DNA from: Ptychodera flava
Lineage: Eukaryota > Hemichordata > Enteropneusta > Ptychoderidae
NCBI RefSeq assembly: GCF_041260155.1
Contig: NW_027248277.1
Coordinates: 17,457,872 to 17,521,871, forward strand
DNA length: 64,000 bases
Direction: 5' to 3'
In this document: piece after piece, positions 1 through 64,000 of the stretch
How the letters are laid out: each line of letters begins with the position of its first letter
Position numbering within the stretch: position 1 is the first letter of the stretch
Position numbers and translations under genes: made by a program
Notes under the pieces: generated by a model
Seen by the model: only the letters and a program-made list of their open reading frames with translations
What the model was told of the DNA's origin: nothing
The model's database searches: none

Positions 1-321
1 TATGTATAAGGAGGAACGCTAACTATAAAGTTAAGTCGCAAATTCCAAGATATAACTCGTCATTTATGATTTATCATCATTTATCATTCGCGGGTTTATA
101 AATTTTCTGTATCAGATTTTTTCCGCTTGTTTGCCTCTTTCTGTTCTGTTTCATCATTCTCTCCCATCACTGGGGTCTTCTCTGCAATTTTTTTCTCTTC
201 CTCTCTCAGACTGCTGATATTTTTATCTTCTGTTGAAATATCTGTCATTCCTAATTCTCCGAAATAGAAGTCTATAGAATTACCGAAGGATATCGTGAAT
301 AGTACAAATCATGGATTATAC
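1..321. other. Intron 3 of copy A
   Basis: Near-identical to 39436-39754 in copy C. On the minus strand it contains a short charged open frame (MTDISTEDKN...) that is also seen in B (about 17120-17273), but the frame is broken in C, so it is not called as a gene. Confidence 0.5.
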
Positions 322-1804
322 CTTCTGTTCACCTCTTCATTTTCAAACTCCCTTGGAATCATCTGATAGAATTTTTTCATAATTGGGAATAATCCAGCAT
401 TTAAATCTGCTTACCATTTTCCGGTTTAAGTGTGTGCAGTTTGCCATTTTATTGGCAATTAACCTGGGAAATACACCAAGACTTCATATAAATACCTTCA
501 TGCATTCATCGTTGGTCTGTTCGTCACAAGGCTTCAATCACTGTTGACCTTCATTCTGCATCTAAGATTTGCTTCCTGTGACCTTCAGACCGCTCAATTG
601 CAAAACTAGCGTAACAGGCTTACCAAAATTAACTTGATGCATTTGCTCATTCAATAAAATTACTCTTGTGATATATTTGCTAATGTACAATTTCTTCAAA
701 TATCAGCACATGAGTGTCTAATAAGTGTTAATTTTTAACTAAGCAATGTCTCAATTGCTACAGCTTTTTTCATATAAAAGCTAATCTTGAAGTGTATGGG
801 ATTGTGCTTTGACAGAGAATGCCAATTCAAAACTCAAAAATGCACCTAAAATCATGGGACACTTTTACTGTTGATTAGGGATATGTTGATCGTCGTGATA
901 GTTAAACTGTTGAGTTATTGATACTATCTATTTAAATTGTTTAATTTTGTAATCATAGTTTTTTTTTGGAAAGTGAAAAGAGCATAACATTGAGCATTGT
1001 TAAAGTACCCACCCAATGATACCAATTTGAAACACTGATGCAGAACATTTTCGAATACTCACGGATATATTTTCTCCGACTTCACCATATCTAAATCTAT
1101 TGTCTCACCAGGGACATACTGATAACAAATCCCATTATTGAAACAACAGTGAAGTTCAGGACCACACTTGGCTTTGAATAAGACCTGAAAGGTTTCTATT
1201 TCTTTTACTCTGTCCACCATCGATATTGATTTGTTTCCGTAAACGCGAATTAAAACCATGTCACGTGTATTTTCAGGCAAATAAAACCGAACAACTTATT
1301 CGAAATGCCACCCGTAAACACCTGAAATGTAAAATAAAAATTGATATCGTATTAGATGATTCTTGATTCAAAATTCGACAGTCACACCAGGATAATATAC
1401 CTGCATGCGAATGTGTATCATACATGTTGGACGATTACGCCAAGCGTGGCTGGCCTGTTAAATCTTTTGTTTAACAAGGTTTATTGACATGTCATGATAT
1501 AAAGGTATCGACATCTTGATTGGGGTTATCATTGTCTTGTTCCCTGAAGTAATCCCAGCACGTTTGTTCCCTGAAATAATCCCAGCAGAATAAATATTTT
1601 GGGTCTATGACGTAACTATTACAGCATGGATAGCTAAACTCAAGTCAATTACAAATTAAAACATCGGCAGTATTACCTTGTGAATAACATAATTATAAAA
1701 AATTAATCTATGCTGCCTTTATTAATTGGCGTCGATTGTCAAGTCCTTTATACCAACGATGAAGGCTCCTGCTGTTCATGTATGTAGGAAAACCGTGGCA
1801 AGGA

Positions 1805-2275
1805 TAAGGCTACGCTCACAAATAACGCTGAAGGGAGGGCTGGAGGAATCGCGATTGAAATATCTTCTTTTTCAGGTCCCCTAAATGCTCTAAAATTTTC
1901 AAGTCCCTCCGGATCAATTTTTTTCAAATCCCCTAATTATGATATAGCATATTTATTAGGAATGCAAACAAAGAAAATATAAATATGATATAGGCAATTC
2001 TGCTCGACGATGTTCAACACTACCTGTGCAAACATGAATATTGCGTGTTTCAGCATGCTTTAGGGAGACAGCAAGAAACTGTATTTGACAAATATGCATT
2101 CAGATATTGAAACAACTATCAACAGTTGCAGCTTCTGCCCTGATACTAGGCCTACTTGTTTATTTTTCATACAAGATTTATAATTTATTTTTTATTTTTC
2201 GTGACTACCCCAAAATTTTCGAATCCCCCTGAAATCCTCCAACGCCCTCACTCTTTTTGTGAATGCAGAGTAATG
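1805..2275. mobile_element. Possible MITE with imperfect inverted ends (copy A intron 1)
   Basis: The left end has CACAAATAACGCTGAAGGGA and then GGGCTGGAGGAATC. The right end, read on the other strand, has CACAAAAAGAGTGAGGGCG and then TTGGAGGATTTC. The ends are only roughly inverted and no clear target duplication was found. The same block lies in C (about 41240-41712), B (about 15105-15560) and D (about 60835-61300). Confidence 0.3.
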
Positions 2276-2819
2276 AGGATATTGACATAAAGCTCTGAGA
2301 AAGCCTTGGCGTATTGATCGGTTAAGATAACTGGACTCCAAAACCGACTGGACCCTAGTCAACTAGACCTCAGATCAACTCCACCTTAAACCCCGAACAA
2401 GTGTACCTCCTATTAAAAGTTTATCTCTTCGAATCATTTTTGATTAGTAGCCACTTGTGTTGAGGGTCATTCTGTTTCTTCCTTATGATATATGTACAGA
2501 CCAAGAGTCAGCTGTTGTCATGCTACAGTCACACAAGAGCTTCCACAGTTTTAGTAATTTAATTTGATTTTACATGTAATTTTTCTTCGAACTCCGTCCT
2601 GACACTGTGTACGACAGTGAAGCCCGTTCATACCTTTTATGGGAGACCATGAACTGCTTGATGAATTCCAATGGTTCAGGCGTGATAGACCCCGGAGAAA
2701 TAAGAGGTGGAGGTGTGGCTATTTGAGTAAATTTCTCTCTTGGAGCCAAACGAATGTCACACTATGAATCCAACTGTGAACTATAAAATACAATGACTAT
2801 GTTGCTTCTGGTGCAGGAG

Positions 2820-4507
2820 ATCTCGAGAACAACCCAAGCGATTTTTCTCTTTTGCTACAGCCTGTATGAAAGAGACAAAGTCGCGTATACCTTGTACTAT
2901 AAGGCTTGTGACGAGCAAGCTCAGAGGCCGATATTTTCAATACCTTTTTGAATCTGTTTTTACAAATGATGTCATTAATACCAATCCTGAATTAGAAACC
3001 CAATATATGATCCATTGCTTAGGTTCACTATTCTGTGTCAGAGGTTAAGTTAGAACTTTAAGTCCTGAATAAACATAAAGCAATGGATGACGATAATTTG
3101 CCAGCGATAGTTTAAAAATGTGCTGATTCACTTTTCCATTCCACTAACTTTCATATATAATCGGTCAATCCACGAGGGAGTTTTCCCGAAAGCTGAAGAA
3201 AGCTTTGGTTGTACCTAGTACCTATACACAAAAAGGGTACCAAAACAAACGTAAGAAATTATCGCCAAGTGTCCCTCTTATTTCAAAAATGTGTGAGAAA
3301 ATGATACCAAGGCGAGTATATAACCATGTAAAGAATGGTTTTTCGTCGGGGCGATCCTTTGATCTATCTGTCTTGCTTAATGAAGCTCGTATTGCTGTTA
3401 ATGAGGCAAAACAGTTGGATATCAAATATACAGATTTTTCTAAGGCATTTGACGAAGTAAATCATAAATATTTAGTTAACACACTTAGTAAGTATGGAAT
3501 ACAAGACGCCCTCCTTGACTGGTTTGTTAGCTAACTAACTGATAGATCGAAGGTAGTTAATGTTAAAGGGTGTAGATCAAACCCTGGTTCAGGGAAGTCA
3601 GGGGTTCCGCAGGTGTCACAACTAGGATCACTGTGTTACATTCATTAAATGACCTATTTGGCAAGCCGCACTTTCCAATCCCAGGTTCTCGCATTAGTGG
3701 AGTTCTCCTCCCAGTCAAACACTTGGCCAGTACGATGTTTGATTTCTACAACATTGATTACACAAACTGATCTCAACCTTTTGTCACATTTTGCTAATCC
3801 TGCAAACAGAGTTTATACAAGCGTTTGATTGACGGTCGGTTCAAATCACCAACGGTCGTTGATTCGCCACCATAAACACTTGAATTTCCTAGAGAAGTTG
3901 TCTTCCAGTCGCGTTAGACTTTGATAACCAAAGAGTTCGATCGCCAGCAGCTTCGCGCTGATAGCTTGGCAGTCTGTCTGTGTTTTTGCGGCCGGGGAAA
4001 CTAAAAAGTGGCATTTTCTGGAGCGTGTGCCCGCGTGTTGCCTGTTTGGTGTCCACTTACACAGTGAACGCCGCCATAACTTCGCGTCGTTTTAAAGGGA
4101 GGCTCCGCCTTTAAGGTTGCAGACGATCTGAAGCTGTTTAAAGGCATTTCTGGCGATCCCTGGGATTGCGATTGTTCTGGTCTGTACGAGGATTATTGAA
4201 GTGTGATAGCCTTTTGTTTTCCATAGACATTATAATCTTGTTGGTAAATTTTCTGATGAGATAATCTGGCGCCAACGAATGCCTTTAAGATAATAGATAG
4301 TGTGAGTGACTGTTCAATGTTACAGGAGGATATCACTTGTCCACATGGTGTGACAAATGGAAGATGCGCCTTAATTATGCCAAGTTTGTAGTACTCAGCC
4401 CTCCTTTGAAAAGATTGCCTATTGAAAGGCCTTATAACTTTGATGCACTCAATTTGGAGACAGATTATAGTTGTAGCATAGGCCCTCTGAGGGACTGTAG
4501 TTATAGT
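2820..4507 (+). mobile_element. LINE ORF2 relic, 5' part (copy A intron 1, antisense to host gene)
   Basis: Translations in several frames give the Jockey/CR1-type ORF2 order. A linker region (FQYLFESVFTNDVINTNPEL) comes first, then QKGYQNKRKK...ISKMCEKMI, then GFSSGRSFDLSVLLNEARIA and YTDFSKAFDEVNHKYLV, and then SGVPQ. The polymerase motif is interrupted by a 450-bp insertion, leaving VADDLKLFKG. It resumes after 7371. Several stops and frameshifts show it is dead. The same relic is in all four copies. Confidence 0.65.
3663..4114. mobile_element. 450-bp TTAA-type element inserted in the LINE polymerase motif (copy A, first)
   Basis: Inverted copy of 5962-6419, from AAGCCGCACTTTCCAATCCC to GGAGGCTCCGCCTTTAA. 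Copies B and D have uninterrupted LINE sequence here (FGNFKCGSLGFADDLKLF or its mutated form in D). The insertion site lost about 20 bp of LINE sequence. No coding capacity is seen. Confidence 0.5.
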
Positions 4508-4910
4508 GATCTAGGCATAAAGGTGTGGGATTGATGGATAGCCAAAATAGCCAGCTTTGACATATTTAGCAGCTATGCAGCTAAGAGGGTTTACAGCAAC
4601 GACTCAAGGGATAATTAGCGGCTATTCAGCTATTATGTTTGGGACCTCATGGTGGTAACTTAATAGTGCTTCGGGGTTGTTGAGCAGCTATTTAGCTATT
4701 TTGCTATGATACCAAAATCCTTGGCTATTCAGCTATTCAAGCCAATAGCCGTTTTTAGCCGCTATTAGCCAATGCTAGTTGGCTATTAGCTGGCTATCAG
4801 CTATTTTCTTATCAATCTTATTCATGCAAAAACACAGTCATTTTTTCCCGTATTAACTATTGCCTTGCCTGGAACTTATACGCTCATCATCAACCCGCCG
4901 AATGAGGTGA

Positions 4911-5262
4911 CATAATAATAATAATAATAATATTGGGTTCTTATATAGCGCACATATCCACAAGTACATGTGCTCAATGCGCTTACAATTATTATTACCC
5001 CTGGTCACTGGACCTAATATGATACCACTCAACTCCCTGGGGAGCAAACTACAGCTCACATGTGCAGCCAATAAGCGCAGCAGAGCTAAACACACACATT
5101 ACAACCACTGTCCTACCAGGTACCCATCACTCCTGGGTGGGGAGGAGCAATGAGGAATAAAGTGCCTTGCTCAAGGACACAACACCATGGCCATGCCGGG
5201 GCTCGAACTCACCATCCTGTGATCGTAAGTCCACTGCTCTATCCACTGGCCCATGATGCGTA
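4911..5262 (-). mobile_element. tRNA-derived SINE inside the foldback element (copy A)
   Basis: On the minus strand the head reads TGGGCCAGTGGATAGAGCAG (A-box-like), then GAGTTCGAGCCCC (B-box-like). It continues with the TCCTTGAGCAAGGCACTTTA core found in many invertebrate SINEs, and ends in a (TAT)n tail (the ATAATAATA run at 4911-4932). It is present in A and C. In copy D the site is empty near 58590. Confidence 0.68.
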
Positions 5263-5961
5263 TGTGTATTTTCTGACTTTTTAATTACATTTCAAACATT
5301 TGCTTACGAACTTTTAAACTTTTAAACTCGAGAAATCTCGCAATGTCTTACAGTGCGATTACTATTGCAATGCAGCACCTGTTTGTCGATATCTTTCTTA
5401 TTTACACCAATTATTCCCACTGCCGATCTGAGTGATCTCGCAACTGCGCTTCTGCTTTTCCACATGAACTTACTCGTCGCAGCTCTTTGTCTGATTTAGA
5501 ACCTGTGTAATCAGTCATTCATGTTTGTTTCCGGGATTAGTATCTATTAAAACCTGTAAAGTGGGCATAAACATTACCAATTCTCATGTACAGTGTGATC
5601 TTTTGGCGTGATTTTACCCTTCGCTTAAAACTTAAAGACAATAAACAAAATAATTACCATGTTCACCATTGCCTCCGTAGAGCCCCGCTCGACAAGAAAT
5701 GCACAATGCAATTAGGTATTTCTAATGTAACCTGACATTTGATATTATTTTCTTGGTTCTACCATGGAGGTAGCAGAGAGCATTTCTATTTAATACAGAG
5801 GCCAAGCGAAAACTACAGCTGATCGTCCAAACGCTTGTGTAACTTCCTATGTAAGTACTTGTCAGTTGTGGGAAGTCTTCTGCAAACAACTTTTGTGTTC
5901 AGCTGCAAACTGACATGCATATTTAATGAGTCTTTGAACAAAAGACAATGCAAAAAGGTAT

Positions 5962-6419
5962 TTAAAGGCGGAGCCTCCCTTTAAAAGGACGCCAAGCTAT
6001 GGCGGCGTTCACTGTGTAAGTGGACATCAAACAGGCAACATGCGGGCACACGCTCCAGAAAATGCCACTTTTTAGTTTTCCCCGGCCGCAAAAACGCAGA
6101 CAGACTGCCAAGCGGTCAGCGCGAAGTTGCTGCCGATCGAACTCTGTGGTTATATTCAAAGTCTAACGCGACTGGAAGACAATTTTTTAGGAAATTCGAG
6201 CGTTTGTGATGGGGAATCAATGACCGTTGGCGATTTGAACCGACCGTCAATCAAACGCTTGTATAAACTCTGTTTGCAGGATTAGCAAAAGGTGACAAAA
6301 GGTTGAGATCAGTTTGTGTAATTAATGTTATAGAAATCAAACATCGTACTGGCCAAATGTTTGACTGGGAGGAGAACTCCACTAATGCGAGAACCTGGGA
6401 TTGAAAAGTGCGGCTTTAA
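5962..6419. mobile_element. 450-bp TTAA-flanked element, second insertion in copy A
   Basis: Flanked by TTAA at 5962-5965 and 6416-6419. Inner ends are AGGCGGAGCC and, inverted, AGCCGCACTT. TTAA flanks suggest a piggyBac-type MITE. It is an inverted copy of 3663-4114. Copy D lacks it (about 57875). Confidence 0.5.
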
Positions 6420-7371
6420 GAAAGCCTCTGCTGAATGTCGTTACCATGTAATCACATGAAACTTTTTCAGACACAAGCAATCACATGAAACCTTTTCAAA
6501 CAAAGACTAATCGACCATAACTCCTCTACCGGTCAACCAGCCATGTGACTTAATATATTTTCTTGGTTCTACCATTTCTCGAGGGTCTATGGTTCTACAA
6601 ATCGCAAGATTCGCCTGATCATTTTGCAACAAAATTTTTCATGCCATTGAATGAAATCCTCAATACGCACAATTTGTGATTTCTTTAGCTCTCAATGCAG
6701 AAAAAATGCCATGTGCTGTGGTTAGTAGAAACTTATACTTGCATGAAAGAAAATATTTCCATACAGAACTCAATACTACGTTCTTGGTTCTACAATATTT
6801 ATTCAGTATATTCATGTGATGTCTAATTCTTTCTACACCTAAGTGAAAGTCACGCCCGTAACTTCTTTGTAAGTAGTTGTCAGGCCTTTTAAGACGTGTC
6901 CAATGATTAGCTGGTAGCCAGCTAATAGCTGGCTAATAACAGCTAATAGCTTGAATAGCTCAATAGCCAGCCATTCCGACCTCGGGAGTTGTTAGCTGGT
7001 AGCCAGTTAATAACTGGCTAATTACAGCTAAAAGCGGCTAAAAACGGCTAATAGCTTGAATAGCTCAACAGCCAGCCCATTCGGACCGCGGGAGTTCTTA
7101 GCTGGTAGCCAGCTAATAGTGGCTATTAGCGGCTAAAAACGGCTAATAGCTTGAATAGCTATATAGCCAGCCCTACAATCATTATTTTAGCTGAATAGCT
7201 ACCTACTACGTTTATTAGCAGCTAAAAGTGTCCTGTGGAAATTAATAATAGCTTAAATAGCCACAAGCAGCTAAATATAAGCTATTCTTATTGCTAACAT
7301 AGCTATTAGCTACCTAGCTATTTACGGGGCTATTCAGCTATCAAGCAATCCCGCACCCCACTCGATCTAGG

Positions 7372-7690
7372 GGTGACACTAGACACCAATTTAATTTTTC
7401 AACTCATGTTGTTTCTATTATCACTGATGATTGAAAACTACTGGGCATGCTAAAAAAAAAATCGGGAAAGATTGGCAAAAAGTTGGAACGCTGTTATTGT
7501 ACAAAGGGGGTGCTTTTTGGCCATAGTGGCTTGTGGATGCATTGCTCATGGTTTACACAACGTTCATCAGAACCACGTGGGTAGAGGGACTGTGTCAGAA
7601 CTAAACTTGAATATGCCTCAGTTGTTTGAAACAGTATTGACAAAGTGTACTCTGACAAGCAAGAGCTTTACGGCGTGACTTTGTTAAATA
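7372..7690 (+). mobile_element. LINE ORF2 relic, continuation after the foldback element (copy A)
   Basis: Resumes the LINE right after the target duplication. Sequence matches B (12950-13245, minus) where the relic is contiguous. The reading frame is decayed and nothing functional is expected. Confidence 0.5.
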
Positions 7691-8019
7691 TTTTGTTATC
7701 TTGTAAAAGTAACATTTGATGATTATTTATAGGATGATCTGTGTGTTATACTTAATTTGCCAATGCTGTCCGAACGGCATACTTATTCTGACCTTGTGTC
7801 ATACACAAATCAATTAATTTGAGAGGTTTCACAAATTTTTGATATGTACATGTATTTAATCTTGATCAGCTGTACGATGAAAGTCAAAGAGTTCCCAGGG
7901 GTCGGTTTTTGATTTGCGTTCATTACGTCCCAGAATGTCACTGCAAGTAGTAAATCGTAACCTCCAAAATAAACGTTTTGAGTGAAATCGATCAGGGTCC
8001 GGGGCTTTAGCAAAATATC

Positions 8020-8090
8020 TTTGGGGTCAGTTGACTAACGTACGGGGTCAAGTTGACCTGGGTCCAGTTTACTGTTGACTAGTAAAATAT
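8020..8090. promoter_or_regulatory. GGTCAA/TTGACC-rich block with an ERE-like inverted repeat (copy A)
   Basis: Contains GGGTCAAGTTGACCT at about 8056-8070, which on the other strand is AGGTCA-ACT-TGACCC. This is one base from the nuclear-receptor IR3 consensus. The block is conserved in B (about 12550-12610), C (about 47455-47515) and D (about 56200-56265). Function is unproven; it may only be repeat sequence. Confidence 0.25.
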
Positions 8091-8395
8091 CAATCGCGTT
8101 TGTGTCAAGCCCAGAGTCATCGCTCGGGTCAGTGTGCTGTGGCGATGACCCTGGCCACCGTAATTTAAATGGCCAGTATTAGCATGGAGCTACCAAAAGG
8201 TAGCTTCATTGTTTTAGCTTGTGAGCACAATAAGTATACATATGAAGTTCATTCATATTGTGTACAAAGGAGCTCAATGCTGAATAAAAATATAATTGTG
8301 TACAATAACAATACAATGTACTCATATAATGGCTGTAATTCTAGGTGTGTCCATTGCAAAACAAAATATTGTGGACAAAAATACTGAATTAAATC

Positions 8396-8735
8396 AGCAA
8401 GTTTACACAGTGCGGAGATAGATTTAACACAGCGCGGAGACAAATATAAGACAGCGCGGAGATTTCTACACAGCGCACACGCGCGGACTAGCTGCAATAA
8501 TTGTAGCCTTGGTTGTTGGTGGGGATTGGGCTTCTGTCGTGCGGCTCGCGCCTTGCCCCAACCAAGGGGCAAGGCGCGAGCCGCACGACAGAAGCCCAAT
8601 CCCCACCAACAACCAATGCTACAATTATTGCAGCTAAGCGCGGACACAAATTTAACACAGCGCGGAGCTTTTTACACAGCGCGGAGATGAATTTAAGACA
8701 GCGCGGACATAAATTTAACACAGAGCGGAGAATTG
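8396..8735. repeat. Tandem GCGCGGAG minisatellite (copy A intron 1)
   Basis: About eight degenerate units of roughly 20 bp built on TTTAACACAGCGCGGAGA. They surround a perfect long hairpin at 8490-8635. The array is conserved in B, C and D; D lacks the hairpin. Confidence 0.7.
8490..8635. mobile_element. 146-bp hairpin (foldback MITE) inside the GCGCGGAG array, copy A
   Basis: Starts AGCTGCAATAATTGTAGC and ends GCTACAATTATTGCAGCT. The two halves are near-perfect reverse complements and meet at CCAACCAAGG near 8563, leaving almost no loop. It is GC-rich compared with its surroundings. Absent from copy D. In copy C the core is duplicated. Confidence 0.6.
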
Positions 8736-9059
8736 TCGTTTTCATCTACGGTAGTTACATCTTAGTAAATTAATAATGCCTCTGCCGAAGTAGAGTCGCG
8801 TTACGCGATATCGATTTGAAGTTGGGCTTTTCGTGTCTGCTTGAAAGAGGAAACGCAGCAAAATTAAAATTTAGTCACCTTGAATTGTATAGTTATGGCC
8901 ATCCATTCAGGTCTGAGTGTCTTCATTAATCCAGCGCCCCTGGTTCGGGATTGTTTTCATCCACAGTAATATTAATACGTTTAACTCCTGTTTCAGACAG
9001 TGCCATGATTAACCACTGACCCAATCTAAATCTATCACAGGATGAAATCCAATATTTAA

Positions 9060-9255
9060 CTTTTTTATGCAATTGCATAAATTTGCATAAAGTTGGTCAG
9101 CTCCTGTCCTTTATGCAGTGCATAAAGGTGCGTAAACAGGAAGTCAGTGGTGGTGCCTGTATGCATCTTTTATGCACTCGTATAAAAGGTTTAATGGCTC
9201 ATTAATATTATGCACCTTTATGCAATCCAATAAAGATGCATAATTTTGCATGATT
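9060..9255 (-). promoter_or_regulatory. TGCATAA/TTATGCA motif cluster upstream of copy A exon 1
   Basis: Starts about 55 bp upstream of the ATG. Repeated TATGCA, TGCATAA and ATTTGCAT words, several overlapping as short palindromes (TATGCAATTGCATA). ATTTGCAT is the POU-factor octamer and TTATGCAAT resembles a C/EBP site (established motifs). The block is present in all four copies. Its regulatory role is inferred from position and density only. Confidence 0.4.
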
Positions 9256-9603
9256 GTAAGACAACAATGAGGATGACAACTTACAGTCTCTACAAATTGG
9301 AAAGGACTAGGTTTTAAAGAATAGCTGGATGTATAGTGAGAAACACCTAGTCACTTCCCTGGGGTCACTTTGTAAAATATGTGAAAGAGGCTCCCCACCT
9401 AACTATCCAAATGTTTTTGTGTCAAGATTGTGTTTGATTTGTTTCGAATATGTGATCCTTCATTCTTATTCGATTGTTTGTCTTAATAAAAATGTTTGTT
9501 TCGCTTCGGATATTTGTAGGGAAGTTTGGATTAGTGTGAACGGTAATGTTTTATTTGTGTGGGGAAAGCTTATGGCGATGAATGCAGCACGTATAACGCC
9601 CGT

Positions 9604-11034
9604 AACACACAGCCCTGTCGTGCAGAGCTATTGCTGACGGTCCATAGGCTGGCTGTAACATCAAATATCCGATCAGAGCTGGCAAAGAATTCGTGGCTTT
9701 AATATTTGAACAGTGATGAAGGATTTAAAAAGCGCGGGTGTAACACGATTTTCGGGTTTTCCGCATTCTGATCGCATGATCGTAGACGCGAATCACGCAC
9801 TGCTTCTTAGTGTCCGCGGTAAAGTGCAATTTCATAACGCGAATCAATGCCAAGATCTCGCAAAATGTTTTGAAATGACGGCTTACAAATATTTGTCTTC
9901 TTATTTTCTTATGCTGTTAGTATGTTGCATGAAAGGTTGGAGAATTGGAACACGAATGAAAATATATATCCGTCCGAAAATTGTAGAAGCAACGCTGTGA
10001 GAAATTTTAAGATTGTCCAATTCAGCCAATAATGACCCAACCTTTGCAAGAGTCGGTTATCTAACGGAGTAGGAAGAACAAGTTCTCAAACCCTATTCGT
10101 GGATGCTGCAGAGTATTCTGGTGCCTCCGAGAGATCACCAGTAGACAATCTATGGTCACGTGATCGGAGAGATCATGCGCAGAGGCAGAGGCTGCCATGC
10201 ATTCAACATTTTGTAATTTAAAAACAAAAGAATGAAGGCAGAAAAATGTCAACGTGAATTGGTGCAATTTAGGAAGAACGACAAAGACTTAAGATGAAAT
10301 ACGTACCATCAGTTTTGTGGATAAAATTTCATATTTGAATCTACGTACTGCAACGGTGCACTCAAGATACAATTTCTGGGTTTGGCGGGGTTTCTTTAGC
10401 GTTTTTATTGTCGTTCTTTTTATTTCGTGTATCTGCATATTTATTTCAAATCTCGTACGTTTCACTAGAAAAGGCTCAATAAAATATACATTTATGTGAC
10501 AAAATTGACGTTTCGATTTTCAAAAACAAAAACTGGACGGTGAAATCTTCATGTACTCCACAGTCTTCAAAATGAGTGACACACGCAGTGGATCGATCTG
10601 CCAACAATTGCAGAGAAAATTTGAAAGTCCGAATATCTGTCCCTGAGTGCATTCTACTGTTACAACTAGAGACATTACATGAAGGAGTGGCGAATAGGGA
10701 CAGAAGTGTAACGAACTGAAAGTAGTCTATTGCCATTATACTTTGAAAAGACAACTTATCCGTTTTCATGGCTTTCCATTCAAGTTAAGCGCATTCAAGT
10801 CGAACCATTTGATATTCTTTGGATTGGTTTGTTTTGTAACGGACAGTCTCAGCGGACATGTACGAAAAGAATCGGCCACTAGCTCGCAAAGAGAATTAAA
10901 AAAACACCGAAAATACTATACGTTCTATATTTGCATAACGTTTACAAGGCCACCTTTGCAACGACCAATCCCTGACTGCCGTCACATGTTTGTCACATGT
11001 TTGTAGGCTTCTTCTAGTCTTATTTGAGTCAGAC
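9604..11034. other. Spacer of palindrome 1 between copies A and B
   Basis: No supported gene. The segment is present once here and again at about 49105-50531 next to copy C. Part of it (about 9604-10170) is also found inverted at 54334-54870 next to copy D. Open frames in it are not conserved between its copies. It ends abruptly at 11034, where sequence joins the inverted arm. Confidence 0.6.
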
Positions 11035-11384
11035 ACGGGCGTTATACGTGCTGCATTCATCGCCATAAGCTTTCCCACACAAGTAAAACATTACCGTTCA
11101 CACTAATCCAAACTTCCCTACAAATATCCGAAGCGAAACAAACATTTTTATTAACACAAACAATCGGATAAGAATGAAGGATCACATATTCGAAACAAAT
11201 CAAACACAATCTTGACACAAAAACATTTGGATAGTTAGGTGGGGAGCCTCTTTCACATATTTTACAAAGTGACCCCAGGGAAGTGACTAGATGTTTCTCT
11301 CTATACATCCAGCTATTCTTTAAAACCTAGTCCTTTCCAATTTGTAGAGACTGTAAGTTGTCATCCTCATTGTTGTCTTACAAT

Positions 11385-11580
11385 CATGCAAAATTATGCA
11401 TCTTTTATTGGATTGTATAAAGGTGCATAATATTAATGAGCCATTAAACCCTTTTATACGAGTGCATAAAAGATGCATACAGGCACCACCACTGACATCC
11501 TGTTTACACACCTTTATGCACTGCACGCGCACAGGAGGTGACCAACTTAATGCAAATTTATGCAATTGCATAAAAAAGTT
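11385..11580 (+). promoter_or_regulatory. TGCATAA/TTATGCA motif cluster upstream of copy B exon 1
   Basis: Same block as upstream of the other copies, ending about 50 bp before the ATG at 11632. One internal stretch has changed (GCACGCGCACAGG in place of GCATAAAG...), so one motif is lost relative to copy A. Confidence 0.4.
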
Positions 11581-12002
11581 AAATTTGGATTTCATCCTGT
11601 GATAGATTTGAGATTGGGTTAGTAGTTAATCATGGCACTGTCTGAAGCTGGAGTTAAACGCATTAATATTACTGTGGATGAAAACAATCCCGAACCAGGG
11701 GCGCTGGAGTTAATGAAGACAGTCAGACCTGAATGGATGGCCAAGAATATACAATTCAAGGTGACTAAATTTTAATTTTGCTGCGTTTCCTGTTTCAAGT
11801 AGACACGAAAGCCCAACTTCAAATCGATATCGCGTAACGCGACTCTACTTCGGCAGAGGCATTATTAATTTACTAAGATGTAACTACCGTGGACGAAAAC
11901 GACAATTCTCCGCGCTGAGTTAAATTTATGTCCGCGCTGTGTTAAATTCATCTCCGCGCGGTGTAAAAAGCTCCGCGCTGTGTTAAATTTGTGTCCGCGC
12001 TT

Positions 12003-17600: not shown

Positions 17601-17699
17601 ATTTATCATCTGGAAATATAGTGTACGACGAACAAAGTGGTAAGTGAAATAATTATCGATTTGTATGAACCTATTCGAATGTCTAATATTAGTAATACA

Positions 17700-20275: not shown

Positions 20276-20290
20276 TATATACATACAAAC

Positions 20291-48516: not shown

Positions 48517-48569
48517 GATTAACCACTGACCCAATCTAAATCTATCACAGGATGAAATCCAATATTTAA

Positions 48570-51978: not shown

Positions 51979-52488
51979 CACTATAGGGAAAAGTGCGTGA
52001 CTAGAGCGAGAAACTGACGCTTTCTCGCAATTGGTGAGAATCTCTTCTTATTCTCACCGCTGTCGGTGAGAAAATTTTAATCTCCACTGGAAATTGTGAG
52101 TAATGCACTCCTTGGCGAGAATCAAGTGTGACATCAAATTCTCACCGGTGAGAATGGAAATTCTCACTAAGTACAGCGAGAATTGAAATTCACTGGCGAG
52201 AATCATCAAGACTCGCCGGTCGGAGTCTTTATGATTCTTGCCAATGAACTGCGAGTCTTGATGATTCTCGCCAGTGAATTTCAATTCTCGCTGTACTTAG
52301 TGAGAATTTCCATTCTCACGGTGAGAATTTATTCTCTCACTTGATTCTCGCCAAGGTGTGCATTTCTCACCAATCTCCAGTGGAGATTAAAATTTTCTCA
52401 CCGACAGCGTGAGAATAAGAAGAGATTCTCACCGATTGCGAGAAAGTGTCAGTTTCTCGCTCTAGTCACGCACTTTTTCCCTATAGTG
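51979..52488. mobile_element. 510-bp foldback element with CACTATAGGG ends
   Basis: Near-complete inverted repeat centred at about 52233. Ends are CACTATAGGGAAAA and its complement, flanked on both sides by TAT (TA or TAT target duplication). The arms contain many TTCTCACCGGTGAGAA-like and GGCGAGAATC subpalindromes. No open frame. Confidence 0.75.
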
Positions 52489-52671
52489 TATATGCATTGT
52501 AACTTGTTGTTTTGATGACGTCATCAATTGAATACTGGAACACTGGCAGTGCAGTCATCCCTGTGTAAATAATAGACAATAACTGTACAATACGAAATCT
52601 TTGATTTTCGGTCGGACAGATGGATGCCGATGAGAAGCACTGACATCCGGAAAAAGTGAGTGTAGGCCTAC

Positions 52672-52809
<138 letters not shown>

Positions 52810-55206
52810 ACTTAATTACGGTATTGTCATGGTTGTCATGTACGACTTTGACGGTCAAAGTTAAAAGTGCGGCTTGAAGAGCGATTTGTCGCTTGCAGCC
52901 TTATGCTATGAACAATGCATGCAATGTTTAGTTTGTAAAGGGGAAGTGTTGTGAATTGAGAGCCAATAATATCTTGACATTATCTCACAACTGCACAGAA
53001 AATATACCGAATGAAATATAATCTTTGTTTCTTTTTTCTGGTCTCTAAGACAAGATTTATCGAAGAAAGATTTCACATATTCGTTGTCATTAACAGTGAC
53101 TGATAGAGTGTGATTATATAAGTGTCCATTACATTCCTCTGTTGTATTTGTACAAAATATCGGGAATTGTGATTTACAAATTTTGACCTGGCAACCCGAA
53201 AGAGTCGTAGGCCACAATAATAAATTAATTTACTACCGTGAACTGAAGGGGTTGAAATTGTTGAAAGAAAAAACTGCATGATTATAAAGAATATTTCATG
53301 TGAAGACTTCAACAAACTGTACTATCCACAAAATATCGACTCATGGTTGCGTGACAACTACAGAGATATTTGTACGATATAGTCGAAAAAGTGTTAGAGA
53401 TTGTATGAAAAAAGCAAACGACAAAGTTTTAAAAATTAAGGATTTGAAATGAAAGTGAAAGATGAAAACTGAACGATTTCAAATTTTGGTCCTTCTCCGC
53501 AAAAGGTGGCATAATTTACACAATGATTCCTGTTTCGCTAACTTGGATACAGTTCAGTGCTAACAAACAAAGACAATACAAACATTATAGGATTGAATAC
53601 TTTTAGGTAAAATTTAAGTGTCAGTTGAAGAATCCGAAATGTTTTCATAATTTTTTAAGGATATGTACTCTCATCAAATATACTGATCTTGTTCTACGTA
53701 TACTTGTACGGCAATGGAAACAAAAGGAATACAGTGTACAAGTGAAATTTCCCAAGTTCAAGGTCACAGATGAAACAGCTGATGATTGCATCCTGTTTCC
53801 GCTAACCAGTCTTATATTAAATGACGTCACAGTTATATCATTAATATGCAAATATCTTTCAAATATTGACCGAAAGACTTTCGGAAACCGCAAGGTATGA
53901 GAAGATGGAAATCACACCCTTTGTGTTTTCAAAAGATGGTTTGATAGAGCCTGTAACAACGACGAGTGGCGGCGGGGGTGTTACCACAAAGCAGAAAAGC
54001 ACTGAATTTTTGTCGAACCCAAGAAATATTGTGCACGCGTTCCCGGCCATTCATTTTAATGCAGTGACAAGATTTAGTGGCGATTAAAGTTATCAATGTC
54101 TGTGTCTTTAACCTTTGCAATGAAATATGTCTTCTTCTTGAATTTTGTTTGTCTCCTCAAATTGGCCATTCCATCTTTCAATAAGTTTGTTGTCATCGAT
54201 GATTTATGAACACAGATACATATTTGAACATGCAGCCAAGTGATAAATGTGTAGATAATTTACTATTTTCTATTTTAATATCCAAGATAATATTTCGTAA
54301 TTAAAAGGTTTGTATGTAATTTGACCGATACGAGATCACGTGACCATAGATACTCTGCAGCATCCACGAATAGGGTTTGAGAACTTGTTCTTCCTACTCC
54401 GTTAGATAGCCGACTCTTGCAAAGGTCGGGTCATTATTGGCTGAATTGGACAATCTTAGAATTTCTCACAGCCTTGCTTCTACAATTTTCGGACTGATAT
54501 CTATTTTCATTCTTGTTCCAATTCTCCAACCTTTTATGCAACATACTAACAGCATAAGAAAATAAGAAGACAAATATTTGTAAGCGGATATTTCAAAACA
54601 TTTTGCGAGATCTTGGCATTGATTCGCGTTATGAAATTGCACTTTACCGCGGACACTAAAGAAGCAGTGCGTGATTCGCGTCTACGATCATGCGATCAGA
54701 TTGCGGAAAACCTGAAAATCACGTTACACCCGCGCTTTTTAAATCCTTCATCACTGTTCAAATATTAAAGCCACGAATTCTTTGCCAGCTCTGATCGGAT
54801 ATTTAATGCCAGCCAGCTATGGACCGTCAGCAATAGCTCTGCACGACAGGGCTGTGTGTTACGGGCGTTATACGTGCTGCATTCATCGCCATAAGCTTTC
54901 CCCACACAACTAAAACATTACCGTTCACACTAATCCAAACTTCCCTACAAATATCCGAAGCGAAACAAACAATTTTATTAACACAAACAATCGGATACGA
55001 ATGAAGGATCACATATTCGAACGAATCAAACACAAACTCGATACAAAAACATTTGGATAGATAGGTGGGGAGCCTCTTTCACATATTTTACAAAATGACC
55101 CCAGGGAAGTCACTAGATGTTTCTCACTATACATCCAGCTATTCTTTCAAACGTAGTCCTTTCCAATTTGTAGAGACTGTAAGTTGTCATCCTCAGTGTT
55201 GTTTGA

Positions 55207-55410
55207 AAATATGCAAAATTATGCAACTTTATTGGATTGCATAAATGTGCATAATTTTAATGAGCCATTAAACCCTTTTATACGAGTGCATAAAGATGCA
55301 TACAGGCACTACCGCTGACTTCCTTTTACAAACCTTTATGCACTGCATAAAGTCGTGCACAGGAGCTGACCAACTTTATGCAAATTTATGCAATTGCATA
55401 AAGAATTTTA
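55207..55410 (+). promoter_or_regulatory. TGCATAA/TTATGCA motif cluster upstream of copy D exon 1
   Basis: Same block upstream of the copy D ATG (55462). It keeps ATGCAAATTTATGCAATTGC and adds TGCATAAAGTCGTGCA near 55345. Conservation of the motifs despite scattered changes elsewhere in the block is suggestive but untested. Confidence 0.4.
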
Positions 55411-55729
55411 AATTTGGGATTTCATCCTGTGATAGCTTTGAGATTGGGTCAGTGGTTAATCATGGCACTGTCTGAAGCAGGAGTTAAACGCATGAATGTT
55501 ACTGTGGATGAAAACAATCCCGAACCAGGGGCGCTGGAGTTAATGAAGACAGTCAGACCTGAATGGATGGCCAAGAATATACAATTCAAGGTGACTAAAT
55601 TTTAATTTTGCTGCGTTTCCTGTTTCAAGCAGGCACGAAAAGCCCAACTTCAAATCGATATCGCGTGACGCGACTCTACTTCGGCAAAGGCATTATTAAT
55701 TTACCAAGATGTAACTCCCTTGGACGAAA

Positions 55730-55880
55730 ACGACAATCTCCCCTTTGTGTTAAATTTATGTCCGCGCTGTCTTAAATTCATCTCCGAGCTGTCTTAAATT
55801 CATCTCCGCTCTGTGTAAAAAGCTCCGCGCTGTTTTCAAATTGTCTCCGCGCTGTGTTAAATTTATATCTGCACTGTGTA
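55730..55880. repeat. GCGCGG minisatellite without hairpin (copy D)
   Basis: Five to six units of CTCCGCGCTGTCTTAAATTCA type. Uninterrupted where copies A, B and C have the hairpin element. Confidence 0.65.
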
Positions 55881-56589
55881 AACTTGCTGATTTAATTCAG
55901 TATTTTTGTCCACGATATTTTGTTTTGCAATGGACACACCTAGAATTACAGCCATTATATGAGTACATTGTATTGTTATTGTACACAATTATATTTTTAT
56001 TCTGGATTGAGCTTCTTTGTACACAATATGAATGAAGTTCATATGTATACTTATTGTGCTCACAAGCTAAAACAATGAAGCTTCCTTTTGGTAGCTCCAT
56101 GCTAATACTGGCCATTTAAATTACGGTGGTCAGGGTCATCGCCACAGCACACTGACCCGAGCGATGACTCTGGGCTTGACACAAACGCGATTGATATTTA
56201 ACTAGTCAACAGTAAACTGGACCCAGGTCAACTTGACCCCGTACGTAAGTCAACTGACCCTAAAATATTTTGCCAAAGCCCCAGGCCCTGATCGATTTCA
56301 CTCAAAACGTTTATTTTGGAGGTTATGATTTACTACTTGCAGTGACATTCTGGGACGTAATGAACGCAAATCAAAAACAAACCCCTGGGAACTCTTTGAC
56401 TTTCATCGTACAGGTGATCAAGATTAAATACATGTACATATCAAAAAAGTGTGAAACCTCTGAAATTAATTGATTTGTGTAGGAATAGGTGTGCCTTTCA
56501 GACAACATTGGCAAAATAAGGATAACACACAGATTATCCTATAGATAATCATTAAATGTTACTTTTACAAAATACAAAATATTTAACAA

Positions 56590-56900
56590 AGTCACGCCTT
56601 AAAGCTATTGCTTGTCAGAGTACACTTTTTCAATACTGTTTCAAACAACTGAGGCATATTCAAGTTTAGTTCTGACACAGTCCCTCTATCCACGTGGTTC
56701 CGATGAACGTTGTGTAAACCTTGAGCAATGCATTCACAAACCACTATGGCCAAAAGGCATCCCCTTCGTACAATAATAGCGTCCCAACTTTTTGCCAATC
56801 TTTTCCCGAATTTTTTTTTAGCATGCCAAGTAGTTTTCAATCATCAGTGATAATGGAAACAACATGAGTTGAAAAAATTAAATTGGTGTCTAGTGTCACC
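56590..56900 (-). mobile_element. LINE ORF2 relic, distal part (copy D)
   Basis: Counterpart of 7372-7690, beyond the foldback element. Decayed. Confidence 0.45.
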
Positions 56901-58996
56901 CCTAGATCGAGTGGGGTGCGGGATTGCTGGATAGCTGAATAGCCCCGTAACTAGCTAGGTAGCTAATAGCTATGTTAGACATAAGAATAGCTTATATTTA
57001 GCTGCTTGGGGCTATTATTAAGCTATTATTAATTTCCACAGGACACTTTAGCTGCTAATAAACGTAGTAGGTAGCTATTCAGCTAAAAATAAATGATTGT
57101 TGGGCTGGCTATAGAGCTATTTAAGCTATTAGCCGTTTTTAGCCGCTAATAGTCACTATTAGCTGGCTACCAGCTAAGAACTCCCGCAGTCCGAATGGGC
57201 TGGCTGTTGCGCTATTCAAGCTATTAGCCGTTTTTAGCCGCTATTAGCTGTTATTATCCAGCTATTAGCTGGCTACCAGCTAACAACTGCCGAGGTCGGA
57301 ATGGTTGGCTATTGAGCTATTCAAGCTATTAGCCGTTTTTAGTCGCTATTAGCTGTTATAAGCCAGTTATTAGCTTGCTACCAGCTAAGCAGTGGACACG
57401 TCTGAAAAGGCCTGACAACTACTTACAAAGGAAGTAAGGAGCGTGACTTTCACTTAGGTGTACAAAGAATTAGAAATCACGTAAATATACTGAATAAATA
57501 TTGTAGAACCAAGAACGTAGTATTGAGTTCTGTATGGAAATATTTTCTTTCATGCAAGTGTAAGTTTCTACCAACCACAGCACAAGGCATTTTTTCTGCA
57601 TTGAGAGCTAAAGAAATCACAAATTGTGCGTATTGAGGATTTCATTCAATGGCATGAAAAATTTTGTTGAAAAAACGAAATGATCAGGCAAATCTTGCGA
57701 TTTGTAGAACCATAGACCCTCGAGAAATGGTAGAACCAAGAAAATATATTAAGTCACATGGTGGTTGACCGGTAGAGGAGTTATGGTCGATTAGTCTTTG
57801 TTTGAAAAGGTTAAATGTGATTGCTTGTGTCTGAAAAAGTTTCATGTGATTACATGGTAACGACATTCAGCAGAGGCTTTATCTAATACCTGTGATGGGT
57901 TTTGCATTGTCTTTTGTTCAAAGACTTATTAAATATGCATGTCAGTTTGCAGCTGAACACAAACATTGTTTGCAGAAGACTTCCACAACTGACAAGTACT
58001 TACATAGGAAGTTACACAAGCGTTTGGACGATCAGCTGTAGTTTTGGCTTGGCCTCTGTATTAAATAAAAATGCTCTCTTCTACCTCCATGGTAGAATCA
58101 AGAAAATAATATCAAATGTCAGGTTACTTTAGAAATACCTAATTGCATTGGGCATTTCTTGTCGAGCGGGGCTCTAAAGAGGCAATGGTGAACATGGTAA
58201 TTATTTGTTTACTGTCTTTAAGTTATAAGCGAAGGGTAAAATCACGCCAAAAGATCACACCGTACATGAGTATTGGGAATGTTTATGCCACTTTACAGGT
58301 TTTAATAGATACTAATCCCGGAGACAAACATGAATGACTGATTACACAGGTTCTAAATCAGACAAAGAACTGCGACCAGTAAGTTCATGTGAGAAAAGCG
58401 GAAGCGCAGTTGCGAGATCACTTAGATCGGCAGTAGGAATAATTGGTGTAAATAAGAAAGATATCGACAACAGGTGCTCCATTGCAATAGTAATCGCACT
58501 GTAAGACATTGCGAGATTTCTCGAGTTTAAACGTTCGTAAGCAAATGTTGAAAATGTAACTAAAAAGTCAAAAAATACACCTACGAATTGTATGTCACCT
58601 CATTCGGCGGGTTGATGATGAGCGTATAAGTTCCAGGCAAGACAATAGTTAATACGGGAAAAATGACAATGTTTTTGCTTGAATAAGATTGATAAGAAAA
58701 TAGCTGATAGCCAGCTAATAGCCAGCTAGCATTGGCTAATAGCGACTAAAAACGGCTATTAGCTTGAATAGCTGAATAGCCAAGGATTTTGGTATCATAG
58801 CAAAATAGCTAAATAGCTGCTCAACAACCCCGAAGCACTATTAAGTTACCTCCATGAGGTCCCAAACATAATAGCTGAATAGCCGCTAATTATCCCTTGA
58901 GTCATTGCTGTAAACCCTCTTAGCTGAATAGCTGCTAAATATGTCAAAGCTGGCTATTTTGGCTATCCAGCAATCCCGCACCTTTATGCCTAGATC
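56901..58996. mobile_element. Foldback DNA element, copy D (2.08 kb, lacks SINE and 450-bp element)
   Basis: The element is 56909-58988, flanked by CCTAGATC at 56901-56908 and 58989-58996 (same target site as in A and C). Ends are GGGGTGCGGGATTGCTGGAT and the inverted GGTGCGGGATTGCTGGATAG, the cleanest terminal repeats of the three copies. The SINE site is empty near 58590 and the TTAA-element site is empty near 57875. Confidence 0.72.
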
Positions 58997-60311
58997 ACTA
59001 TAACTACAGTCCGTCAGAGGGACTAAGCTACAACTTTAATCTGTCTCCAAATTGAGTGCATCAAAGTTATAAGGCCTTTGAATAGGCAATCTTTCAAAGA
59101 AGGGCTGAGTACTACAACTTGGCATAATTAAGGCGCATCTTCCATTTGTCACACCACGTGGACAAGTGATATCCTCCTGTAACATTGAACAGTCATATAC
59201 ACTATCTATTATCTTAAAGGCATTCGTTGGCGCCAGATTGTCTCATCAGAAAATTTACCAACAGGATTATAATTCCTATGGAAAACAAAAGGCTATCGCG
59301 CCTCAATAATCTTCTTAAAGACCAGAACAATGGCAATCCCAGGGATCGCCAGAAATGCCTTTAAACAGTTTCAGATCGTTTGCAAAGCCTAATGAGCCAC
59401 ACTTAAAATTGCCAAATTGGTCATTTAAATAATGAATGAAACACACTGATCCTATTTGTGACACCTGGGCGGAACCCCTGGCTTCCCTGAACAAGGGTCT
59501 GATCTACACCCTTTAACATTAACTACCTACGATCTATCAGTTAGTTAGCTAACAAACCAGTCAAGGAGGGTGTCTTGTATTTCATACTTACCAAGTGTGT
59601 GAACTAAATATTCATGATTTACTTTGTCAAATGCCTTAGAAAAATCTGTATATTTGACATCCAACTGTTTTGCCTCATTAACACCAATACAAGCTTCATT
59701 CAGCAAGACAGATAGATCAAAGGATCGCCCCGACGAAAAACCATATTGTTGTTGTTCAGATGAAACATTCTTTACATGGTTATATACTCGCCTTGGTATC
59801 ATTTTCTCACACATTTTTGAAATAAGAGGGACACTTTTCGATAATTTCTTACGTTTGTTTTGGTACCCTTTTTGTGTATATAGGTACCAGGTACAACCAA
59901 AGATTTCTTCAGCTTTCGGGAAAACTCCCTCGTGGATAGATCGATTATATATGAAAGTTAGTGGAATGGAAAAGCGAATCAGCACATTTCTAAACTATCG
60001 CTGGCAAATTATCATCATCCATTGCTCTATGTTTATTCAGGACTTAAAGTTCTAATTTAACCTTTGACACAGAATAGTGAACCTAAGCAATGGATCATAT
60101 ATTGGGTTTCTAATTCAGGGATGGTATTAATGACATCATTTGTAAAAACAGATTCAAAAAGGTATTGAAAATATCGGCCTCTGAGCTTGCTCGTCACAAG
60201 CCTTATAGTACAAGGTATACGCGACTTTGTCTCTTTCATACAGGATGTAGCAAAAGAGAAAAATCGCTTGGGTTGTTCTCGAGATCTCCTGCACCAGAAG
60301 CAAATAGTCAT
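58997..60311 (-). mobile_element. LINE ORF2 relic, best-preserved RT (copy D)
   Basis: The 146-codon frame at 59545-59985 carries the conserved order FIYNRSIHEGVFPKAEE, YTQKGYQNKRKK, ISKMCEKMI, SSEQQQYGFSSGRSFDL and YTDFSKAFDKVNHEYLV. The polymerase motif further on is GFANDLKLFKGISG (about 59365-59405), with the first catalytic Asp of ADD changed to Asn. The linker frame is at 60057-60311. Confidence 0.68.
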
Positions 60312-63300
60312 TGTATCTTATAGTTCACAGTTGGATTCATAGTGTGGCATTCATTTGGCTCCAAGAGAGAAATTTACTCAAATAGCCACACCTCCACCTC
60401 TTGTTTCTCCGGGGTCTATCACGCCTGAACCATTGGAATTCATCAAGCAGTTCATGGTCTCCCATAAAAGGTATGAACGGGCTTCACTGTCGTACACAGT
60501 GTCAGGACGGAGTTCGAAGAAAAATTACATGTAAAATCAAATAAAATGACTAAAATCTGTGGAAGCTCTTGTGTGACTGTAGCTTGACAACAGGTGACCC
60601 GTGGTCTGTACATATATCATAAGGAAGAAACAGAATGACCCTCAACACAAGTGGCTACTAATCAAAAATGATTCGAAGAGATAAACTTTAATAGGAGGTA
60701 CACTTATTAGGGGTTTAAGGTCGAGTTGACCTGAGGTCTAGTTGACTAGGGTCCAGTCGGTTTGGGAGTCCAGTTATCTTAACCGATCCATACGCCAAGG
60801 CTTTCCCTTAGCTTTATGTCAATTTCCTCATTACTCTGCATTCACAAAAAGAGTGAGGGGGCTGGAGGATTTCAGGGGGATTCGAAAAGTTTGGGTAGTC
60901 ACAAAAAATAAAAATGTACGAATTTTGTATGAAAAAATAGACAAGTAGGCCTAGTTTCAGGGCAGAAGCTGCAACTGCTGATATTGTTTCAATATCTGTA
61001 TGCATATTTGTCAAATACAGTTTCTTGCTGTCTCCCTAAAGCATGCTGAAACACGCAATGTTCAGTTTACACAGGTAGTGTTGAACATCGTCGAGCAGAA
61101 CTGCCCATCACATATTTATATTTCTTTGTGTGCATACATCCCTAATAAATATGCTGTATCATAATTGGGGGATTTGAAAAAATTGATCATTTAGACGGAG
61201 GGACTCGAAAATTTAGGGCATTTAGGGGACCTGAAAAAAAGAGATTTCAATCGCGATTCCTCCAGTCCTCCCTTCACCGTTATTTGTGAGCGTAGCCTTA
61301 TCCTTGCGACGGTTTTCCTACATACCTGAACAGCAGAAGCCTTCATCGTTGGTGTAAACGACTTGACAATCGACGCCAACTTATGAAGGCAGCATAGATT
61401 AATTTTTGATAAGCAATGTTATTCACAAGGTAATACTGTCGATGTTCTCTTTGTAATTGACTTAAGTTTAGCAATCCATGCTGTAATAGTTACGTCATAG
61501 ACCCAAAATATTTATTGTGCTGAGATTATTTCAGGGAACAAAACGTGCTGGGATTACTTCAGGGAACAAGACCATGACAACCCCGATCAAGATGTCGATA
61601 TCTTTATATCATGACATGTCAATAAACCTTGAAAAACAAAAGATTTATCAGGCCAGCCACGCATGGCGTAATCGTCCAACATGTATGATACACATTCGCA
61701 TACAAGTATATTATCCTGGTGTGACTGTCGAATTTTGAATCAAGAACCATCATCTAATACGATATCAATTTTTTATTTTACATTTCAGGTGTTTACGGGT
61801 GGCATTTCGAATAAGTTGTTCGGTTGTTATTTGCCTGAAAACACACGTGACATGTTTTAATTCGCGTTTACGGAAACAAATCAAAATTGATGGTGGACAG
61901 AGTAAAAGAAATAGAAACCTTTCAGGTCTTATTCAAAGCCAAGTGTGGTCCTGAACTTTACTGTTGTTTCAATAATGGACTTTGTTATCAGTTTATGCCT
62001 GGTGAGACAATAGATTCACACATGGTCAAGTCAGAGAAAGTATATCCGTGAGTATTCGAAAATCTTTTGCATCAGTGTTTCAAATTGGTATCATTGGGTG
62101 GGTACTTTAACAATGCTCAATGTTTTGCTCTTTTCACTTTGCAAACAACCTATGATTACAAAATTAAACAATTTAAATAGATAGTGACAATAACTCAACA
62201 GTTTAACTATCACGACAATCAACATATCTCTAATCAACAGTATAAGTGTCACATGATTTTTAAGTGCATTTTGAGATTTGAATTGGCATTCTCTGTCAAA
62301 GCAGAATCCCATACAGTTCTAGATTAGCTTTTATTTGAAAAAAGCTGTAGCAATTGAGACATTGCTTAGTTCAAAATGAACACTTGTTAGACACTCATGT
62401 GCTGATATTTGAAGAAATTGTACATTAGCAAATATATCAGAAGAGTAAATTTTATTGGATGAGCAAATGCATCATGTTAATTTGGTAAGCCTATTACGCT
62501 AGTTTTGCAATTGAGCGGTCTGAAGGTCACAATAAGCAAATCTTGGATGCAGAATGAAAGTCAACAGTGATTGAAGCCTTGTGACGAACAGACCAACGAT
62601 GAATGCATGAAGGTATTTATATGAAGTCTTGGTGTATTTCCCAGGTTAATTGCCATAAAATGGCAAAACTGCACTGTCTTAAACCGGAAGATGGTAAGCA
62701 GATTTTAAATGCTGGATTATTCCCAATTATGAAAAAAGTCTATCAGATGATTCCAAGGGAGTTTGAAAATGAAGAGGTGAACAGAAGGTATAATCCATGA
62801 CATGTACTATTCAATTTCTCCTTCGGTAATTCCATAGACTTCTTTTTCGGAGAATTAGGAATGACAGATATTTCAACAGAAGAAAAATATCAGCAGTCTG
62901 AGAGCGAAAGAGAAAAACTTGCAGAGAAGACCCAAGTGATAGAAAAGAATGGTAAAACAGAACAGAAAGAGGCAAACAAGCGGAAAAAATCTGATAGAGA
63001 AAATTTATAAACCCGCGAATGATAAATGATGATAAATCATAAATGACGAGTTATATCTTGGAATTTGCGACTTAACTTTATAGTTAGCGTTCCTCCTTAA
63101 ACATATGTCGGTGAATATCCTTCATTCCTCTGTTGTCGATCCCAGTTTGTGTACTTTCGCGTATTAATTTTTGTAAAAATCCCCCTAGCGACAGGCCCAC
63201 AAGTGCATTTTCGCTATCCCCTGCCTGTATATCATCCCTTCACACACAGGTTTCAAGAAAATATTCCGAGCTATGACCAACTTGGAAAGGAGATTGAAGA

Positions 63301-63459
63301 ATTGGAGACAAAGTTGGTTCCATTGAATTCACCAATTGTGTTCTGTCATAATGATTTATCATCTGGAAATATAGTTTACGACGAACAAACTGGTAAGTGA
63401 AATAATTATCGATTTGCATAAACCTATTCGAATATCTAATATTAGTAATACATTTCGTA

Positions 63460-63540
63460 AGTCCATCCATTCGTTCATTCAGTTAGTCAGTCATTCTGTC
63501 ATTCATTCATCCATCCATCCATTCATTCATTCATTAAGAG
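63460..63540. repeat. Short minisatellite, copy D intron 4
   Basis: About 80 bp of CATT/CATC/GTCA units, the short counterpart of the copy C array. Confidence 0.7.
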
Positions 63541-63651
63541 TACTGTTTAGTCTTGATGTACGAAGATGCTATATAATTTTTTTCAGCCAGTATTCCCATA
63601 AGTCCTCAAATTTCTATGGTGTGGTTTAAAACAATAAAGCAGTCAACAGTT

Positions 63652-64000
63652 AAAGGGGAAGTTCACCAAGTTCACGGGTATGGCCCTGCATTGTCCATTC
63701 ACAGCAACACAGTAGTAAACAGCAACACAGAATCTGACAGTGTACAGTTTATTATAAGTGATTTATCGTTTATGCAAGGATACTCAGTATAAACAAAAGT
63801 TATGTAAATACGCACAGTCTGATTTGCGCGTGGGCGAGTGGACAATGCAATACCATGGGAAGATGTCCTTCCATATCAGGTGATGCAAGTTCCAAGCCTG
63901 GAGCTATTTTCCCATGATTCAAATTACATGGGCAACTTCCTGTACTATTTTTATCGGTTTTTGTAAAAAATCGCGCGAGTTATAAATGGCGAAAATAGGT
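63652..64000. mobile_element. MITE with GGGGAAGTTCACC end (copy D, cut by window end)
   Basis: Begins right after CAGTCAACAGTT (63640-63651). Matches 17912 onward and is truncated by the window border. Confidence 0.45.

Follow-up and report, generated by a model that had tools for sequence, protein, structure and literature searches.

The 64,000-base stretch of the acorn worm Ptychodera flava analysed here (contig NW_027248277.1; hereafter the window) holds four copies of one block, each carrying all or part of an ethanolamine kinase (ETNK) gene, and we consider it probable that these copies record a recent, lineage-specific amplification of this gene by duplication of an inverted pair, followed by exchange between the copies. 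Self-BLASTN of the window placed the blocks in the order minus, plus, minus, plus, as the original prediction had it: block A (1–11035, minus strand; delimited also by the alignment of the units and cut by the window's left end), block B (11035–24759, plus strand), block C (30990–50532, minus strand) and block D (54343–64000, plus strand; cut by the window's right end). Block C measures ~19.5 kb because it includes 30990–39434, the mirror of B 17709–24759. A lies parallel to C, with 1–8620 matching 39435–48043 (98.1% over 8.6 kb) and the parallelism continuing from 8530–11035 to 48041–50532 (96.9% over ~2.5 kb), and B lies parallel to D (13290–18266 with 59014–64000, 95.0% over ~5 kb); both parallels, including the correspondence of position 1 to about 39436, had been anticipated. 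Neighbouring blocks (A/B, B/C and C/D) are matched in inverted orientation over kilobases at ~90–94%. Matches of such lengths are far beyond chance, and inverted arms of more than 1 kb with ~90% identity or more are those of an inverted segmental duplication. The three spacers that had been proposed fared unequally: gaps exist at 24760–30989 and, with corrected limits, at 50533–54342, while 9604–11034 proved to be A-type sequence running to 11035.

We aligned the four units in one orientation (20,391 columns) and, in the 6,041 four-way columns free of gaps, counted the sites supporting each split: 133 for AC|BD, 19 for AD|BC and 7 for AB|CD. Segments of ~425, 345 and 390 bases are common to A and C and missing in D; the third is absent from B as well, and for the first two B gives no information, its whole region being missing there. 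A directly abuts B at 11035, with 1.4 kb of A having no partner in B; the last bases of A match those of C at 50532 and the first bases of B match those of D at 54861, making the A/B join (11030–11040) a fusion of C-type sequence to 50532 with D-type sequence from 54861, that is, the C/D join minus ~4.33 kb, with one base of microhomology as judged by eye. On their outer side, the B and C arms break off at an identical unit base. The site patterns, the A/C segments and the homologous AB and CD junctions support a direct duplication of an inverted pair, from which we infer the following order of events. A ~19-kb duplicon with one eight-exon ETNK gene would have been copied inverted beside itself, giving an ancestor of A and C on one strand and of B and D on the other; this inverted pair would next have given rise to a direct copy of itself, after which one of the two pairs would have lost ~4.3 kb at its centre to give the present A/B junction. 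Later exchange, by conversion or unequal crossing-over, would have left a patchy divergence in which B and D appear older than A and C.

The repeated gene was located by combining stop-to-stop open reading frames (ORFs) with tblastn searches using two relatives, and it is, as predicted, an ethanolamine kinase: copy C, the only copy scanned, matched PF01633 at 247 bits (cut-off 29; E-value 3e-73), with residues 43–342 aligned to positions 2–300 of the 300-position profile. The gene has eight exons; some of them lie in every block, and the full set in B and C only. Copy B (plus strand) has exons 1–8 at 11632–11760, 16043–16302, 16903–17046, 17498–17639, 19050–19133, 19618–19777, 21172–21245 and 21861–21935, and copy C (minus strand) at 48516–48388, 40757–40498, 39898–39755, 39290–39148, 36360–36277, 35782–35622, 34055–33982 and 33320–33246. 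Copy A (minus strand) shows exons 1–3 (9006–8879, 1321–1063, 463–322), exons 4–8 falling beyond the left end of the window, and copy D (plus strand) shows exons 1–4 (55462–55590, 61789–62047, 62645–62787, 63250–63392), exons 5–8 falling beyond its right end. AG/GT splice dinucleotides are present at all internal borders of these exons (three exons in A, eight in B, eight in C and four in D). Copy C is intact and open over 356 codons, and at least this copy can encode a full kinase. Copy B is complete save for a 1-base deletion in each of exons 4 and 6, copy D has one in each of exons 2 and 3 and copy A has four in exons 1–3 relative to the other copies; all eight coding defects in A, B and D are of this one kind, and no in-frame stop was found in any exon of copies A–D within the window.

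Among the 171 relatives retrieved, P. flava proteins head the list. Copy C is identical to one of them, P0001 (which stands for a cluster of seven sequences), at 330 of 356 residues. A second, P0044, agrees with copy A at all 19 readable exon-3 residues, with B, D and P0001 differing from it at one residue each and C at two; in exons 5–6 it is identical to C at 48/48 residues, to P0001 at 43/48 and to B at 36/48. The P0044 model begins downstream of the frame breaks of copy A. By these matches P. flava is the probable source of the window, and P0044 is probably copy A. The contigs listed for P0001 and P0044 both measure 29,013,476 bases. A maximum-likelihood tree, midpoint-rooted, of 21 proteins (window copies B, C and D with 18 of the 171 relatives; copy A was left out) grouped B, C and D with P0001 (100/99) and nested them in a Ptychodera-only clade (95/94) together with proteins on 44 Mb and 63 Mb contigs, and it gave four Glandiceps and two Saccoglossus proteins clades of their own (100/99 each). 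These last proteins (P0008–P0013, of Glandiceps talaboti and Saccoglossus kowalevskii), besides forming separate ETNK clades, lie within each species on same-sized contigs. The multiplication of ETNK thus appears to have taken place separately in Ptychodera, in Glandiceps and in Saccoglossus, as seen in a sample of listed proteins that does not distinguish genes from isoforms. The original prediction had not known multi-copy ETNK to be typical; it is unusual for most species among the matches listed, but not for these three hemichordates, each with several copies. No literature on a hemichordate ETNK expansion mentioning 'ethanolamine kinase' appeared among the matches listed, and the main text of the P. 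flava genome paper (PMC11175523), in the portion available, contains neither 'ethanolamine' nor 'kinase', 'tandem dup' or 'segmental duplication'; such absence among the matches listed is weak evidence of novelty.

Several observations weigh against an amplification by inverted-pair duplication with later exchange. Intron divergence is unequal, at 1.1% for A–C and 4.6% for B–D (the other four pairs lie at 5.1–5.4%), where one pair-copying event predicts equal ages; because of this we set aside a single clean duplication of the pair, so that of the duplication originally proposed the pair as the copied unit stands and the single event does not. B and D are near-identical only in unit columns ~9,650–10,900 and ~12,000–13,550, and in columns ~1,500–3,500 B is nearer to A and C than to D. 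Counted in stretches of 250 aligned columns, the differences show over-dispersion in each of the five pairs tested (A–C, B–D, A–B, C–D and B–C; simulated p ≤0.0004), and since the patchiness marks every one of them it falls short of proving exchange. In A–B, A–D, B–C and C–D the exons do not diverge significantly less than non-exon sequence, and the exons of A–C are more divergent than non-exon sequence (14/529 vs. 93/8437, p 0.005), an excess that may stem from local error in the consensus or from conversion of single exons by another paralog. Finally, the copy-A signature by which P0044 is told from B, D and P0001 amounts to one residue. Exchange between copies is nevertheless the natural reading of patchy divergence, and a possible one, with local rate differences or unseen paralogs as alternatives. 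It had also been predicted that inverted repeats of this kind would be prone to gene conversion; the patchiness leaves room for exchange, but strong homogenisation is not seen, the inverted arms being ~5% apart.

The frame-breaking deletions raise the question of whether C is the only working copy and the other three are decayed pseudogenes, an explanation compatible with a real array or with a misjoined one, and one that we regard as rather doubtful. It would account for the distribution of the defects, which spare only C, and for the four of six pairs in which exons diverge about as much as the rest; copy A, moreover, has 4 of its 10 copy-specific 1-base deletions in exons (p 0.001), an excess that is not explained by error alone. 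However, the visible exons contain neither a nonsense codon nor a lost splice site, and the ratio of nonsynonymous to synonymous substitution (dN/dS, Nei-Gojobori) is 0.38–0.71, below 1 in all six copy pairs. The deletions are also not peculiar to the gene: across the unit, 55 copy-specific 1-base deletions stand against 11 insertions in the columns covered by three or four copies, and the excess extends to non-exon sequence, where 48 of the 55 lie, which suggests a sequencing origin. The exon share of such deletions is 1/16 in B and 2/20 in D, with no enrichment (p 0.79 and 0.41). Residual long-read consensus error or very recent damage is therefore more likely than old pseudogene decay as the source of the deletions in A, B and D, and polishing reads that could not be uniquely placed in the repeat may have helped to leave such errors behind. 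Coding constraint is weak, since exon and non-exon divergence are mostly alike and exons are lower only in B–D (11/673 vs. 263/5717), where most of the exons concerned lie within a recent B–D tract.

A different kind of doubt concerns the assembly: there may in truth be a single inverted ETNK pair, whose two haplotypes (AB and CD) a long-read assembler placed in tandem, which we judge unlikely. The A–C intron divergence is close to the allelic level to be expected in a variable marine animal (an expectation, not a heterozygosity figure for P. flava), and the 1-base deletions suggest imperfect polishing. Purge Haplotigs acts on whole contigs, and would leave a duplication inside one contig untouched. 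This tool was used, as outlined in the part of PMC11175523 available, in the published P. flava chromosome assembly, built from 60x PacBio reads of the sperm of one male with MARVEL, Purge Haplotigs, HiC scaffolding and Pilon, and the window presumably derives from that assembly. Against a haplotype misjoin, the B–D introns diverge four times as much as those of A–C, a poor fit to uniform allelic divergence, and the window contains zero N bases. Furthermore, with P0001 there are three A/C-type sequences, all distinct, from what is apparently one diploid animal (A, C and P0001), at least two of which would then be non-allelic, and P0001 and the A-like P0044 lie on same-sized contigs, so that more than one locus is likely. 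Chimeric fold-back long reads with missed adapters would also yield an inverted layout; these should give near-identical arms, whereas the arms in the window are ~5% apart in introns and carry arm-specific insertions, and we consider this origin very unlikely because of that divergence. A viral, plasmid or prokaryotic origin was ruled out by the spliced animal gene.

The array copies depart from their family in one motif. The H-x-D-x4-N catalytic motif is present in B, C and D (exon 4 of A lies outside the window) and in 171/171 relatives. The conserved I-D-F/Y-E-Y, which we take to be a defining motif of choline/ethanolamine kinases, reads IDFDE in C and IDFEL in B (exon 5 of A and D lies outside the window). 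Motif counts come from an alignment with the 171 relatives, five of which are gapped at IDFEY; a pattern search alone matched 97/171. The Asp of the motif is retained in B and C. Glu234 is retained in B and replaced by Asp in C, P0001 and P0044; it is Glu in 161 of the 166 ungapped relatives, the five others having Asp (P0001, P0044 and P0067), Gln (P0024) or Ala (P0026). Tyr235, kept in 158/166, is replaced by Glu in C and by Leu in B. Both changes at codons 234–235 of copy C (exon 5, 36360–36277; Glu to Asp and Tyr to Glu) are common to P0001 and P0044. As the drift is common to annotated relatives, we keep the copies in the PF01633 family. The Glu of IDFEY is important for catalysis, and it is a fair guess from the sequences that the copies of this clade may have a changed activity. 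A preference for ethanolamine over choline as substrate is suggested only by the names of the relatives and the position in the tree. We also offer, tentatively, the idea that the window may belong to a larger array, alternating in the same way along one Ptychodera chromosome and holding at least five ETNK genes (P0001 being a third A/C-type sequence), in which inverted pairs would be the amplified unit and copies would trade sequence; the drift of IDFEY would then point to a kinase family adapting to a new substrate and not to a higher dosage, in a phylum with three separate expansions.

Besides the blocks, the window contains two spacers and several repeats. The B/C spacer (24760–30989), between the outer arm ends, contains frame-broken pieces of a non-long terminal repeat (non-LTR) retrotransposon on the minus strand (26818–29248), recognised from ORFs and Pfam: its RVT_1 match (46.1 bits) is above the Pfam cut-off, its endonuclease domain (19.8 bits) is below the cut-off of 27.4 bits, and its third ORF had no Pfam match. 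The C/D spacer (50533–54342), which is missing at the A/B junction, contains a 517-base palindrome (51976–52492) that is ~91% self-complementary and resembles a miniature inverted-repeat transposable element. Intron 4 of copy C holds an AATG-like minisatellite with a 64-base period and ~22 copies (37630–39076), of which B and D have short stretches only. A ~455-base repeat, probably a mobile element, occurs twice in A (3663–4114 and 5962–6416) and twice in C (43100–43549 and 45387–45841); its copies are ~93% alike, the two within each block are mutually inverted, and it is mostly missing from D at the corresponding places. A reverse-transcriptase-like ORF lies in intron 1 of A (3148–3534), C (42585–42971) and D (59545–59994), the A copy, the only one scanned, matching RVT_1 below the curated cut-off. 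Long ATAC/ATGT microsatellites occur in intron 6 of B (20279–20601) and of C (34859–35123) and in the B/C spacer (25690–26137). Rfam and transfer RNA scans of the window gave no match.

If the amplification is real, a housekeeping kinase of a lipid pathway has been multiplied by inverted-pair duplication in an acorn worm, and its motif drift makes a change of substrate testable. Haplotype purging and polishing can fail on arrays of this kind, and copy numbers and gene models at this locus call for caution. The array is an inverted segmental duplication within a gene family expanded in this lineage, a fairly ordinary kind of recent amplification. Its closest counterparts are the ethanolamine kinase 1-like genes of the hemichordates Ptychodera, Glandiceps and Saccoglossus, which belong to the same family and among which the window copies fall in the Ptychodera clade beside P0001; the alternating layout is known from this window alone. 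Among proteins of solved structure, the closest in sequence are choline and choline/ethanolamine kinases such as 2cko, choline kinase alpha, with which the copies share the sequence family and H-x-D-x4-N; IDFDE in C and IDFEL in B, in place of the D-[FY]-E-Y of most relatives, set them apart. The arms of sex-chromosome palindromes are >99% identical through gene conversion, whereas the inverted arms described here (A–B, C–D and B–C introns, 5.1–5.4%) are not homogenised and have no known sex linkage. What the array shares with the ampliconic palindromes of mammalian sex chromosomes (PMC4772468) is gene-bearing inverted arms, a short unique centre and possible exchange between the arms.

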